Of a stretch of DNA of 64,000 bases, positions 41,320 to 44,968 are shown piece after piece (position 1 is the first letter of the stretch; each line of letters starts with the position of its first letter). The stretch comes from Geothrix fuzhouensis (GTDB lineage Bacteria > Acidobacteriota > Holophagae > Holophagales > Holophagaceae). The stretch is from positions 62,001 through 126,000 of the forward strand of contig NZ_JANHMQ010000003.1 in NCBI RefSeq assembly GCF_024609325.1, read 5' to 3'. Both the position numbers and the translations under genes were made by a program. Under the pieces are notes generated by a model, which did no database searches, was not told the origin of the DNA, and saw only the letters and a list, made by a program, of their open reading frames with translations.

Positions 41320-42300
41320 TCAGTTGCTGCGCAAGCGCTTCCGGTACAGCTGGGCGATGTCGGCGGGCAGCGGGTAGAGGGAGGCCTGGGCGACGGCCGC
41401 CTGGCCCTGGCGGGAGAGAAGGTACTGCAGGAACTCCGTGATCGCCGGAGACAGGGGCTTGCCGGGGGCACGGTTCACGTAGAAGTAGTAGGTCCGGGCC
41501 AGAGGGTACTTGCCCGAGACCACGTTCTCCTGGGTTGGAGGCACCGGATCCTTGGCCTGCAGCGGCGTCACCGCCAGGGTCTTGTTGCGGGCCAGCCAGT
41601 TGGACAGGGTGGCGATGCCGATGCCGTTGGCATCCGTCATCACGGCTTCGGCGATGCTCGGCCAATCCACCTCGTCATGGACGGTGGTCTTGTACGTGCC
41701 CTTCAGGAGCACCAGATCGCGGATCCCGGACCGCGCGGCGGTACCCTCCGCGCGCATGTAGGGATGGATGGGGCGCTTGGTGTAATCTCCCCGGACGCCC
41801 AGGTCCCCCCAGGTGTCCACGGGCGCATTCTTCTTGTAGCCGGCGTTGTAGGTGGTGGAGAAGGCCGCATCCAGCTGATCCATCCCGATGTCCTTGATGG
41901 GGTTGCCGGCGTTCACGAAGACGATGAAGGCGTCGTAGCAGACCACCAGCTTGGTGGGGGTGTAGCCGAACTTCTTCTCGAAAGCCTGGTGCTCCTCCAA
42001 GGTGAGCTCCCGGGCCATGTGGATCATGGGGGCCGTGTTGTCGAGCAGGGCCTTCACGGCGGTGGTGGACAGACCTTGGGTGACCTTGAACTGGGCCTGG
42101 GGCTGGAAGGTCTTGAACCCGGCCTTCCACTCCTCCCAGACATCCGTCAGGGAGTCGGCGCCGACGCTTTCGATCACCGCATTGACATTCTGAGTCGGCG
42201 CGTAGGAGGGCAGATTGGGATCCAGCTTGGGTGTGTGCTGGGCAACCCCTTGGCTGAGCAGCAGGGTGCTGGCCGAAAGGGCAAGGAAGAGCGAACGCAT
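41320..42300 (-). CDS. PstS-like phosphate-binding periplasmic protein
   Basis: A 326-aa solute-binding protein with a signal peptide (MRSLFLALSASTLLLSQGVAQ). It shows the PstS-family pattern DVWEEWKAGFKTFQPQAQF, ELTLEEHQAFEKKFGYTP, YDAFIVFVNAGNPI, YMRAEGTAARSGIRDLVL and YYFYVNRAPGKPLSPAITEF. The ATG at 42300 has AGGAG five bases upstream; a further ATG at 42318 lacks one. No pstCAB genes are adjacent, so it is an orphan binding protein, a common arrangement in environmental bacteria. Its leader carries a strong hairpin and an AT-rich stretch. Confidence 0.88.
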   Translation of the reverse strand: MRSLFLALSASTLLLSQGVAQHTPKLDPNLPSYAPTQNVNAVIESVGADSLTDVWEEWKAGFKTFQPQAQFKVTQGLSTTAVKALLDNTAPMIHMARELTLEEHQAFEKKFGYTPTKLVVCYDAFIVFVNAGNPIKDIGMDQLDAAFSTTYNAGYKKNAPVDTWGDLGVRGDYTKRPIHPYMRAEGTAARSGIRDLVLLKGTYKTTVHDEVDWPSIAEAVMTDANGIGIATLSNWLARNKTLAVTPLQAKDPVPPTQENVVSGKYPLARTYYFYVNRAPGKPLSPAITEFLQYLLSRQGQAAVAQASLYPLPADIAQLYRKRLRSN

Positions 42301-42321
42301 GGAGACTCCTGGAGACAAGGA

Positions 42322-42452: not shown

Positions 42453-43184
42453 TCAGCTGAGCCCCAGTCGGGCCTTCAGGGCCGGGGCGGCGCCTCGGCT
42501 GACCTCCAGCTCCGTCCCCCCGGCGAGGCGCACGAGCAGACGGCCCGAATCCCCTGCCCGTACCCCGAGCACGGCCTCTGGCCGGAGTAGCAGGTGGCGA
42601 TGACCGCGAACCACCCGGGGGCCCAGGGCCAGTTCCGCCTCTGCCAGGGTCTTCCAGGTCGTGCGCAGCCGGTCGCCGGCAAAGGCCCACACGGCGCCAT
42701 CCTCGAACAGGAAGTGCGTGGTCTTGGCGAGATCCACCAACACCAGGCCCTCGCCGGCCTTCACGGGGAACCGGAAAGGGCCTGTCAGGCGCGTGGCCGG
42801 GTCGTGACTGACCCCATTCCCCATAAGGGTGCGCAGGCGGAGGAGGGTGGCCGCCAGCCGCTCGGCCGTCACGGGTTTAAGCAGGTAGTCCGTGGCGGCC
42901 TGCTCAAAAGCCCGCACGGCATGCTCCGCATAGGCTGTCACGAAGACCACCGGAATCGGTCTCGGCAGGTCCGCGTTCACATCCAGCCCGGTGAGACCGG
43001 GCATCTGGATGTCCAGGAACAGCGCATCCACGCCTTCGCCGTGGGCCAGCCATGCCAGCACGGAGGGCCCGTCCTCCAATTCCGCCACCACCTCGCAGCC
43101 CGCCTCCCGGAGCAGCCGCGACAGCCGGCGCAGGTTGAACGGTTCGTCCTCGGCCACCAGCACGCGCAGTGGGTGCCCACTCAT
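42453..43184 (-). CDS. LytTR-family response regulator
   Basis: A 243-aa regulator. The receiver at ~5-120 carries acidic residues AEDE (11-14), phospho-acceptor D58 (LFLDIQMPGLTG) and the lysine in YLLKPVTAE. Residues ~140-243 form a LytTR DNA-binding domain (FLFEDGAVWAFAGDRLRTTW, VVRGHRHLLLRPEAVLGV). Its ATG at 43184 overlaps the kinase stop (ATGA), so the pair is coupled. Candidate LytTR binding sites lie upstream of the operon's first gene at 44922-44963. Confidence 0.94.
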   Translation of the reverse strand: MSGHPLRVLVAEDEPFNLRRLSRLLREAGCEVVAELEDGPSVLAWLAHGEGVDALFLDIQMPGLTGLDVNADLPRPIPVVFVTAYAEHAVRAFEQAATDYLLKPVTAERLAATLLRLRTLMGNGVSHDPATRLTGPFRFPVKAGEGLVLVDLAKTTHFLFEDGAVWAFAGDRLRTTWKTLAEAELALGPRVVRGHRHLLLRPEAVLGVRAGDSGRLLVRLAGGTELEVSRGAAPALKARLGLS

Positions 43185-44311
43185 GCCTTCACCTCCAGGC
43201 TCAGCTCGGCCACAGTCCATTCGCCTTCCCGCTGGAGCCGCAGAGCGTCCGCCGGGGCCCCCAGCAGGCGCAGCCGTTCCCGAAGGTTCCGCAGGCCCAA
43301 CCCCGGCCCTTCCTCCGCCGCGGGTGCCGGTCCCGTGTTGGCGACCCGCACCCAGAGGTGGTCGTCCCGGCGGGCCACCTTCACGTCCAGGGCCCCGCCG
43401 CCCAGGGCCATGGACACGCCGTGTTTCAGCGCATTCTCCACCAGGGGCTGGATCATGAGGGGCGGGACCTCCAGGGCATCCAGGGCCTCGGGCCAGTCCC
43501 AGGTTTCGCGCAGGCGGTGCCCCAGGCGGAGGCGTTCCAGAGCCAGGTGCCGCTCCACCAGGCGGCGCTCATCTCCCAGCGGAGCCCGGAGGCGCGAGCC
43601 GTGGCCCAGCAGGGTCCGCAGCAGTTCCGACAGGTTCACCAAGGCGGCCTCTGCCGCCGCCGGATCCTCGCGTACCAGTTCTGTCAGGCCGCTGATGGCG
43701 TTGAAGAGTACATGGGGGTTCATCTGGCCTTGGAGGGTGCGCGCCTGCGCCTCATCCGCCGCCCGTCGCGCCGCGGCCACCTGGAACTCGGCCCGCTCCC
43801 GGTCCGCCAGAACCCAGCCCAGCAGCAGCCCGAAGCAGAGGTGGGCCACGCCGAGGACCCAGAACCGGGGATGGACGGGCATGAGCCTTGGCTCCTCCCG
43901 GTGGGGCCCCATGCCACGCCGCGGCCCGCCCCGCTCCATCATGCCCATGCCCGCGCCGGGGCCAGCTCCGGGGCCCGGACCGCGGCCAAAGGGCTGCAGG
44001 CCACCGGCCGAACCCAGGAGCAGGAGGACGCCGAGGGTCAGGGCTGTCATCCAGGGAAGGGCCTGGACCGCCCCCCGCAACGACCCCGCCATGGGGCGGT
44101 CATCGCCAGTCCACTGCCAAGGCAGCGGCGCAAGGAGGAGGAAGAGGGCCACCCACAGCGACGGCGCGAGCAGTTCCAGAAGGCTGGGCTCCGGAAGCCC
44201 CATCAAGGCCCGGGTGCCATTCCACACCAACCCGAACAGCAGCGCGGCGCCCCAAGTCCGGGGGCGCCGCGTCCGCTGCCAGGTGGCCTGGAGGACCGCT
44301 GAAGCGCGCAT
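43181..44311 (-). CDS. LytS/YehU-type sensor histidine kinase with Gly/Pro/Met-rich periplasmic loop
   Basis: A 376-aa kinase. Four predicted membrane helices lie at ~20-38, 48-64, 86-104 and 149-169. Between the last two is a 44-residue periplasmic loop rich in Gly, Pro, Met, Arg and His (GPGAGMGMMERGGPRRGMG at ~117-135, HREEPRLMPVHP after it). The kinase core has the His_kinase motif MNPHVLFNAISGL (H200) and the ATPase part PLMIQPLVENALKHG and GLGLRNLRERL. It has no separate PAS or HAMP domain. It starts 22 bases after the Spy-like gene stop and overlaps the LytTR regulator. The loop resembles the tail of the Spy-like protein. Confidence 0.93.
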   Translation of the reverse strand: MRASAVLQATWQRTRRPRTWGAALLFGLVWNGTRALMGLPEPSLLELLAPSLWVALFLLLAPLPWQWTGDDRPMAGSLRGAVQALPWMTALTLGVLLLLGSAGGLQPFGRGPGPGAGPGAGMGMMERGGPRRGMGPHREEPRLMPVHPRFWVLGVAHLCFGLLLGWVLADRERAEFQVAAARRAADEAQARTLQGQMNPHVLFNAISGLTELVREDPAAAEAALVNLSELLRTLLGHGSRLRAPLGDERRLVERHLALERLRLGHRLRETWDWPEALDALEVPPLMIQPLVENALKHGVSMALGGGALDVKVARRDDHLWVRVANTGPAPAAEEGPGLGLRNLRERLRLLGAPADALRLQREGEWTVAELSLEVKA

Positions 44312-44333
44312 GAGGCTCCAGAATAGCCCGGGA

Positions 44334-44834
44334 CTACTTGGTCATCGGGCAATCGGGGTTCAGGCCGGGGCCACGGCCATGTCCCCTACGGGGCCCCATC
44401 ATGCCGGCGCCGGGGCCGAAACCTGAACCCATGCCCCGCTTTTCGAACTGGGCCTTCTGCTCGACGGTGAGGAGGGGCAGGATCTCCTGCCGAACGGCCC
44501 GGTGCTCGAGCATCAGGTCGAACTGGGCGGCCGAGGCCTTCTCGTGGAGGGCCTGCAGGGTCTTGGCATCCGTGGCCGAGTTGGCCATGGCTTCGCGCAG
44601 GGCCTTGTGGGCTGCCGACGCAGTCTCGCCCTTGGCCTTGAGGGCGCCCTGGTGGCGTTCATGGATGGCCTTCACCTGGGCTTGCTGAGCCTCGGTGAGG
44701 TTCAGGGCCATGAGGCCGCGGCCCGCGCGGGAACCGGGGCCGAATCCGGGGCCGGGGCCCTGGGCCGAAAGGGAAGCGCCAAAGGCCAGCAGGGCCCCGG
44801 CGAGGACGGCAAAACGAAGAGGATGGGTGTTCAT
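44334..44834 (-). CDS. Spy/CpxP-like periplasmic protein (LTxxQ family)
   Basis: A 166-aa exported protein with a signal peptide (MNTHPLRFAVLAGALLAFGA, cleavage near residue 25). The mature part is helical with two LTxxQ-type motifs, LTEAQQAQVKAI (46-57) and LTVEQKAQF (122-130). Both ends are Gly/Pro-rich: GPGPGFGPGSRAGRG after the signal, and GMGSGFGPGAGMMGPRRGHG at 134-153. Spy and CpxP are ATP-independent chaperones or stress sensors; this is the likely class. AGGAG lies seven bases before the ATG at 44834. It heads an operon with a sensor kinase and regulator, and two 21-bp repeats lie upstream. Confidence 0.88.
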   Translation of the reverse strand: MNTHPLRFAVLAGALLAFGASLSAQGPGPGFGPGSRAGRGLMALNLTEAQQAQVKAIHERHQGALKAKGETASAAHKALREAMANSATDAKTLQALHEKASAAQFDLMLEHRAVRQEILPLLTVEQKAQFEKRGMGSGFGPGAGMMGPRRGHGRGPGLNPDCPMTK

Positions 44835-44921
44835 GGGAGCTCCTGGTGGCGGGGGCGGATCATCCGTCCACACCAGGAGATGCCCTCGGGCGGCCTTTGG
44901 TGGAGGCTTCCCTTCAGACTG

Positions 44922-44963
44922 CAGACCCAGGGGGTCGAATGGCAGATCCAGGGGGTCGAACGG
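44922..44963 (-). promoter_or_regulatory. Two 21-bp tandem repeats, candidate LytTR regulator binding sites
   Basis: The blocks 44922-44942 and 44943-44963 agree at 19 of 21 positions and share CCAGGGGGTCGAA. On the minus strand each begins with a TCCGTTCGA/GCCATTCGA-like box. LytTR regulators (AgrA, LytR types) bind paired direct repeats with about a 21-bp period, loosely [TA][AC][CA]GTTN[AG][TC]; the first box fits eight of nine positions, the second less well. They lie 88-129 bases upstream of the Spy-like gene, just after the stop codon of the preceding gene. Confidence 0.6.
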
Positions 44964-44968
44964 AGCGG

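Follow-up and report, generated by a model that had tools for sequence, protein, structure and literature searches.

A conserved operon in Geothrix joins a Spy-like protein to a LytS-type kinase and a LytTR regulator and suggests feedback-controlled envelope sensing

Relation to described systems

In E. coli and Salmonella, the Spy-family periplasmic protein ZraP adjoins the kinase and regulator ZraSR. ZraP represses zraPSR when zinc-bound (PMC10848872), and the ZraR regulon is nearly limited to zraP–zraSR (PMC7657598). In the Cpx system, CpxP has two kinds of binding target, misfolded proteins and the sensor domain of CpxA, and it represses CpxA (PMC12802237). We analysed an operon of Geothrix fuzhouensis, contained in a 64-kb window (the whole stretch of DNA that was analysed), in which a Spy-like gene is followed by genes for a PF06580 (LytS-type) kinase and a LytTR regulator. 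A ZraPSR/CpxP-like feedback module assembled from LytS/LytTR parts is the most likely reading of the locus. The initial annotation knew of no described system with this arrangement. Periplasmic Gly/Met/His stretches shared by a Spy-family protein and its kinase are, however, already a feature of ZraP and ZraS: the E. coli ZraP tail reads GAGMGMGYGGCGGGGHMGMGHW and the periplasmic part of ZraS contains GMGMRMHH and RHGMHNMPRC, although ZraS is HisKA-type, not LytS-type. The new element here lies upstream of spy, where three direct repeats of 21 bp fit LytTR operator boxes. A literature search of incomplete coverage found no paper on a Geothrix Spy protein or a Spy–LytTR pair.

The likeness to ZraP–ZraSR extends to gene content, to the low-complexity stretches in both partners and to regulatory scope, the Geothrix operon having no detectable second site in its genome. 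This likeness is one of composition and layout, since alignment to ZraP and ZraS (p = 0.2–0.4) found no similarity of letters beyond composition. The parts differ: ZraS has a larger periplasmic part, whereas the Geothrix kinase has four transmembrane (TM) helices and no folded sensor domain; ZraR is an NtrC-type sigma54 activator, whereas the Geothrix regulator is of the LytTR type; and zraP is divergent, whereas the Geothrix genes form a single co-directional operon. With CpxP–CpxAR the locus shares a Spy/CpxP-fold adaptor (Foldseek 3itf, 3qzc) and an autoregulated envelope stress logic, but not the HAMP/HisKA kinase, OmpR-type regulator or large regulon; we know of no shared low-complexity motif in CpxP–CpxAR. 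We rejected membership of ZraPSR or Cpx on the parts (PF06580 kinase, four helices, LytTR regulator). The Spy-like protein also resembles metal sensors of the CnrX/NccX type in helical fold class (2y3b, 3epv, 4clv) and in its PF13801 match, but its core lacks an invariant metal ligand; CnrX works with an anti-sigma/ECF pair. YpdAB, BtsSR and AlgZR likewise combine a PF06580 kinase with a LytTR regulator, and the predicted Geothrix operator boxes have a matching architecture; to our knowledge, none of the three has a periplasmic chaperone partner.

A conserved three-gene operon

The operon lies on the minus strand, with 22 bp between the Spy-like gene and the kinase gene and a kinase stop codon that overlaps the regulator start (ATGA). 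Its protein-coding features are:

44334..44834, minus strand: Spy/CpxP-like periplasmic protein gene, 166 aa (PF13801, PF07813; PDB sequence match; fold match; model), comprising a signal peptide (residues ~1–25), a helical core (43–134) and a disordered tail (135–166)
44337..44432, minus strand: disordered C-terminal tail of the Spy-like protein, Gly/Pro/Met/Arg/His-rich, ending NPDCPMTK (sequence, ortholog alignment, model)
43181..44311, minus strand: PF06580 (LytS-type) histidine kinase, 376 aa, four TM helices (Pfam, alignment, model)
44105..44122, minus strand: PWQWTG, the signature motif of the Holophagaceae kinase family, between TM2 and TM3
43871..44005, minus strand: TM3–TM4 loop of the kinase, predicted periplasmic, residues 103–147, Gly/Pro/Met/Arg-rich, disordered (sequence, model)
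43712–43714, minus strand: kinase phospho-acceptor His200 (alignment)
42453..43184, minus strand: LytTR response regulator (REC and LytTR), its start overlapping the kinase stop (Pfam Response_reg and LytTR; NCBIfam)

The nearest named relative among the search matches is Geothrix campi (87% best-segment identity for the kinase). The Spy–kinase–regulator order, with gaps of 9–59 bp, is kept in Geothrix and other Holophagaceae genera, bearing out the Spy–kinase gene pair of the initial annotation, whereas the genes flanking the operon differ between relatives. In the window the operon has a substrate-binding-protein-like gene on its downstream side (41320–42318, minus strand), but in two relatives (L046, L052) this gene is directly upstream of spy; the operon's position therefore shifts between neighbours.

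We assign the Spy-like protein to the Spy/CpxP (LTXXQ) family on its Spy fold and on two curated profiles whose cut-offs it passes: PF13801 Metal_resist (5.6e-12; 46.4 bits, cut-off 29.2) and PF07813 LTXXQ (5.9e-10; 40.2 bits, cut-off 24.3). A PDB sequence search matched E. coli Spy. Foldseek matched the model to Spy, CpxP, CnrX and ZraP, with Spy and CpxP on top; the top matches had probability 1.00, yet the best E-value was 0.009 and the others were weaker. An equivalog of either E. coli protein is ruled out by the NCBIfam scores (Spy, 41 bits, cut-off 174; CpxP, 25 bits, cut-off 238). In the structure model the core is helical and the last 32 residues (...GMGSGFGPGAGMMGPRRGHGRGPGLNPDCPMTK) are disordered. 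No His, Met or Cys is found among the invariant or nearly invariant columns of the core in 34 homologs, H57, H97 and H111 being variable, and we rejected a CnrX-type core metal site (His/Glu/Met ligands), as no ligand is conserved across this set.

The kinase and its family

The kinase scores 55.6 bits against the PF06580 His_kinase profile (6.6e-15; cut-off 25.2). H200 and N293 are invariant in 37 homologs, the N-box reads NALKHG, and the catalytic part is canonical by alignment and model. LytS proper was rejected: there is no 5TM-5TMR_LYT Pfam match and the model has four TM helices. AlphaFold2 places helices at residues 17–36, 44–66, 77–102 and 148–195, with residues 104–143 of the intervening loop (GRGPGPGAGPGAGMGMMERGGPRRGMGPH) disordered (pLDDT ~41). 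Because the kinase domain is cytoplasmic and there are four TM helices, the loop is predicted to be periplasmic. The Spy-like protein is secreted. The earlier placement of both segments in the periplasm is supported.

We defined the kinase family by a profile of the kinase N-terminus, which includes the PWQWTG motif, and searched 396 genomes of the phylum. The profile matched 69 of 77 Holophagaceae genomes, covering 10 of 11 genera, and none in other families. Kinases of this kind (four TM helices, PF06580, PWQWTG) form a Holophagaceae-specific expansion with up to nine matches in one genome (G339); L149–L228 are examples. A Spy-like gene lies directly upstream of 44 of the 128 non-redundant family members, most of which fall in one clade of the tree, with L100 and L205 apart. 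Near 26 profile-found Spy-like loci of other Acidobacteriota families, a motif search of these short loci found no LytS-type kinase motif.

Other secreted proteins occupy the upstream position in some relatives. In L066 the Spy core is absent and a secreted peptide (APAPSGKGKGQGHGQQLHKRDGSG...GQGRGQGRGQG...AACPK), resembling the tail without the chaperone, stands in its place, with 9 bp separating the end of its open reading frame (ORF) from the kinase start (3001). L073 encodes a secreted EF-hand-like protein with three DxNxDG-type motifs, whose ORF stops 7 bp short of the start (3001) of a related kinase with an Asp/Glu/Arg/Pro-rich loop. L192, sister of L073, is without an EF-hand-like partner. 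Related kinases with short GRGG loops (L033, L034, L156, L157) follow a barrel-like protein of ~300 aa with a Gly/Ser/Thr-rich stretch.

The tail and the loop share a style tied to partnership

The initial annotation proposed that the Spy-like tail and the kinase loop are alike in sequence and composition. Within the window this is real. Their local alignment scored 69 against 37.9 for composition-preserving shuffles of the tail (p = 0.0008), and of 74 likely ORFs in the 64 kb these two alone carry a GPMRH-rich stretch, defined as 30 residues with 70% Gly/Pro/Met/Arg/His and at least three Met. Likeness of order is weak across orthologs, however: similarity beyond composition (p < 0.05) was detected in 15 of 44 loop–tail pairs and was absent from the other 29. 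The window loop aligned better with the tails of six other species than with its own, and by alignment the own tail took a median rank of 21 among 44 tails, which is chance (p = 0.46). In composition, own pairs were closer than swapped pairs (p = 0.0003 in Geothrix, p = 0.0005 in the deep group), a comparison that includes kinship.

The style of the loop follows Spy partnership across the family. At least two Met residues were present in the loop of 36 of the 44 Spy-partnered kinases, compared with 2 of the 32 unpartnered family kinases whose loop could be measured. Inside the Spy clade, two nested lineages that have no Spy gene (L033/L034/L066/L067/L156/L157/L197 and L169/L172) also have no Met-rich loop; L100 and L205, whose Spy-like partners are without a Met-rich tail, have loops to match. 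The Gly/Pro tail is missing from ten Geothrix Spy paralogs with no adjoining kinase, this genome's included (Gly+Pro 12% versus 43%). The tie between loop style and partnership is thus borne out, and it rests on few independent events because the Spy-partnered kinases are mostly one clade.

A covariation check, suggested with the original proposal, gave a divided answer. Met fraction, one of ten features tested, covaries modestly between loop and tail: r is 0.50 (p ~0.005) by independent contrasts, and 0.52 (p = 0.011) when only the Geothrix clade is taken. The control, Met of the folded Spy core, is correlated with loop Met just as strongly (r = 0.52), and His covariation appears in the raw data only and is gone after phylogenetic correction. 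In two lineages (L065, L193) the tail contains Met but the loop does not, a separation of the kind that the initial annotation had named as counting against its motif. We rejected strict loop–tail co-evolution on the own-tail ranking and the order-shuffle tests, the Met covariation being equalled by its control, and the same results do not support a specific shared motif. We conclude that tail and loop share a disordered style tied to partnership, and no specific motif.

Predicted operator boxes upstream of spy

Two features precede the Spy-like gene:

44904..44966, minus strand: three direct repeats, GCTCCGTTCGACCCCCTGGAT / CTGCCATTCGACCCCCTGGGT / CTGCAGTCTGAAGGGAAGCCT, with a 21-bp period; predicted LytTR-regulator boxes
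44840..44879, minus strand: conserved leader (ortholog comparison, single-sequence folding)

The regulator belongs to the LytTR class by its PF04397 domain (25.8 bits, cut-off 22.6) and, as predicted from the DNA, by repeat operators of 21-bp period; its best NCBIfam match is BtsR (1.7e-31, below the cut-off). LytTR regulators bind repeats of 9–11 nt with spacers of 11–13 nt (PMC4847170). The window repeats begin 132 bp before the spy ATG, nearly all Geothrix operons place the first box ~131–135 bp ahead of it, and the ortholog repeats are of the CTGYCATTCGA-CCCC type with conserved position and period. Best 10-mer identity at lag 21, the only lag that stands out upstream of spy, was 7.9 in Geothrix representatives against 5.6 ± 0.24 in shuffled sequence, and 7.5 against 5.6 ± 0.35 in deeper lineages. 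The window box CCGTTCGAC resembles the AlgR core CCGTTCGTC (PMC4064291).

A genome search for the two-box pattern with at most one mismatch returned 22 matches against 27 for the reversed control, and we rejected a wider regulon as the pattern did no better than this control; one of the three exact matches is the spy promoter. Because the boxes lie upstream of spy and the genome has no detectable second site, the operon probably regulates mainly itself, although degenerate sites may escape such a search.

A feedback reading and its rivals

We consider it slightly more probable than the contrary that the three genes form a self-contained module for envelope sensing that regulates itself, with CpxP/ZraP-like feedback on LytS/LytTR parts. 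The four-helix kinase would use its disordered Gly/Pro/Met/Arg loop to sense the periplasm and would phosphorylate the regulator, which would bind the three boxes and raise expression of its own operon, or could instead repress it. The secreted Spy-like protein would be both product and feedback adaptor: by analogy with CpxP and ZraP, it may hold the kinase down through the loop until unfolded client proteins or metal draw it off. Tail and loop would then be alike because they act in one place, at the binding surface of the chaperone, at a common soft metal or at both, and not through precise copying. The chance-level ranking of the own tail and the control that matches the Met covariation both count against the feedback module. 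Such a module would suggest that CpxP/ZraP logic, in which a chaperone gates envelope sensing, arose on LytS/LytTR parts as well, a class with few known signals, and that in a kinase a short disordered loop can stand in for a folded sensor domain. Cultured Geothrix species carry the operon, and its small size and apparent self-regulation make it directly testable.

Its serious rival, doubtful in our estimate, is a metal model in which Met, His and the tail Cys let tail and loop bind a soft metal (Cu, Zn or Ag). The kinase would then gauge this metal directly, with the Spy-like protein as a metal sponge or a metal-boosted chaperone, as proposed for ZraP. The Gly/Met/His stretches of ZraP and ZraS and the zinc response of ZraPSR (PMC10848872, PMC7657598) favour this reading, as do the Metal_resist match of the Spy partner, a clade (L041, L049) with abundant His in loop and tail alike, and tails that end in PDCP in many species of the ortholog alignment. 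Yet several orthologs have Gly or Ala at the position of the tail Cys, His does not covary once phylogeny is corrected for, the loops of L065 and L193 have no Met, and the Spy core has no invariant His, Met or Cys; none of the genes beside the operon was recognised as one for metal transport.

Less likely again is an incidental likeness, in which flexible low-complexity linkers, easily made in GC-rich genomes, were co-inherited in one clade and have no joint function. The failure of most pairs to align beyond composition, the chance rank of the own tail, the equally strong core control and the single main clade are all compatible with this, and some Acidobacteriota Spy-like proteins (L253, L264, L279) have G/P/M/R tails with no LytS kinase nearby. 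The rarity of such stretches in the window, the unlinked Geothrix paralogs with no such tail and the nested Spy-less kinases with no Met-rich loop argue against it. We regard as the least likely reading that the loop is a built-in decoy of the tail, both fitting the Spy cradle so that the kinase reads chaperone occupancy, and that family kinases may repeatedly acquire loops mimicking an upstream secreted partner (Spy, the tail-only Gly/Gln/His peptide of L066, the Gly-rich barrel-like proteins or the EF-hand-like protein of L073).

A candidate RNA element in the spy leader

In the conserved leader, CTCCTGGTG (44871–44879) is complementary over 9 nt to the Shine–Dalgarno (SD) region CACCAGGAG (44840–44848), and this pairing encloses an inner inverted repeat, GGACGGATGATCCGCCC. 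A search of the region for Rfam elements found none, its one match being due to chance. RNAalifold on the leader alignment gave weak support, keeping only five pairs with little covariation. When sequences are folded singly, the SD is paired in many ortholog leaders (mean z −1.9), and we note this SD-pairing leader as a lead, a candidate RNA element.
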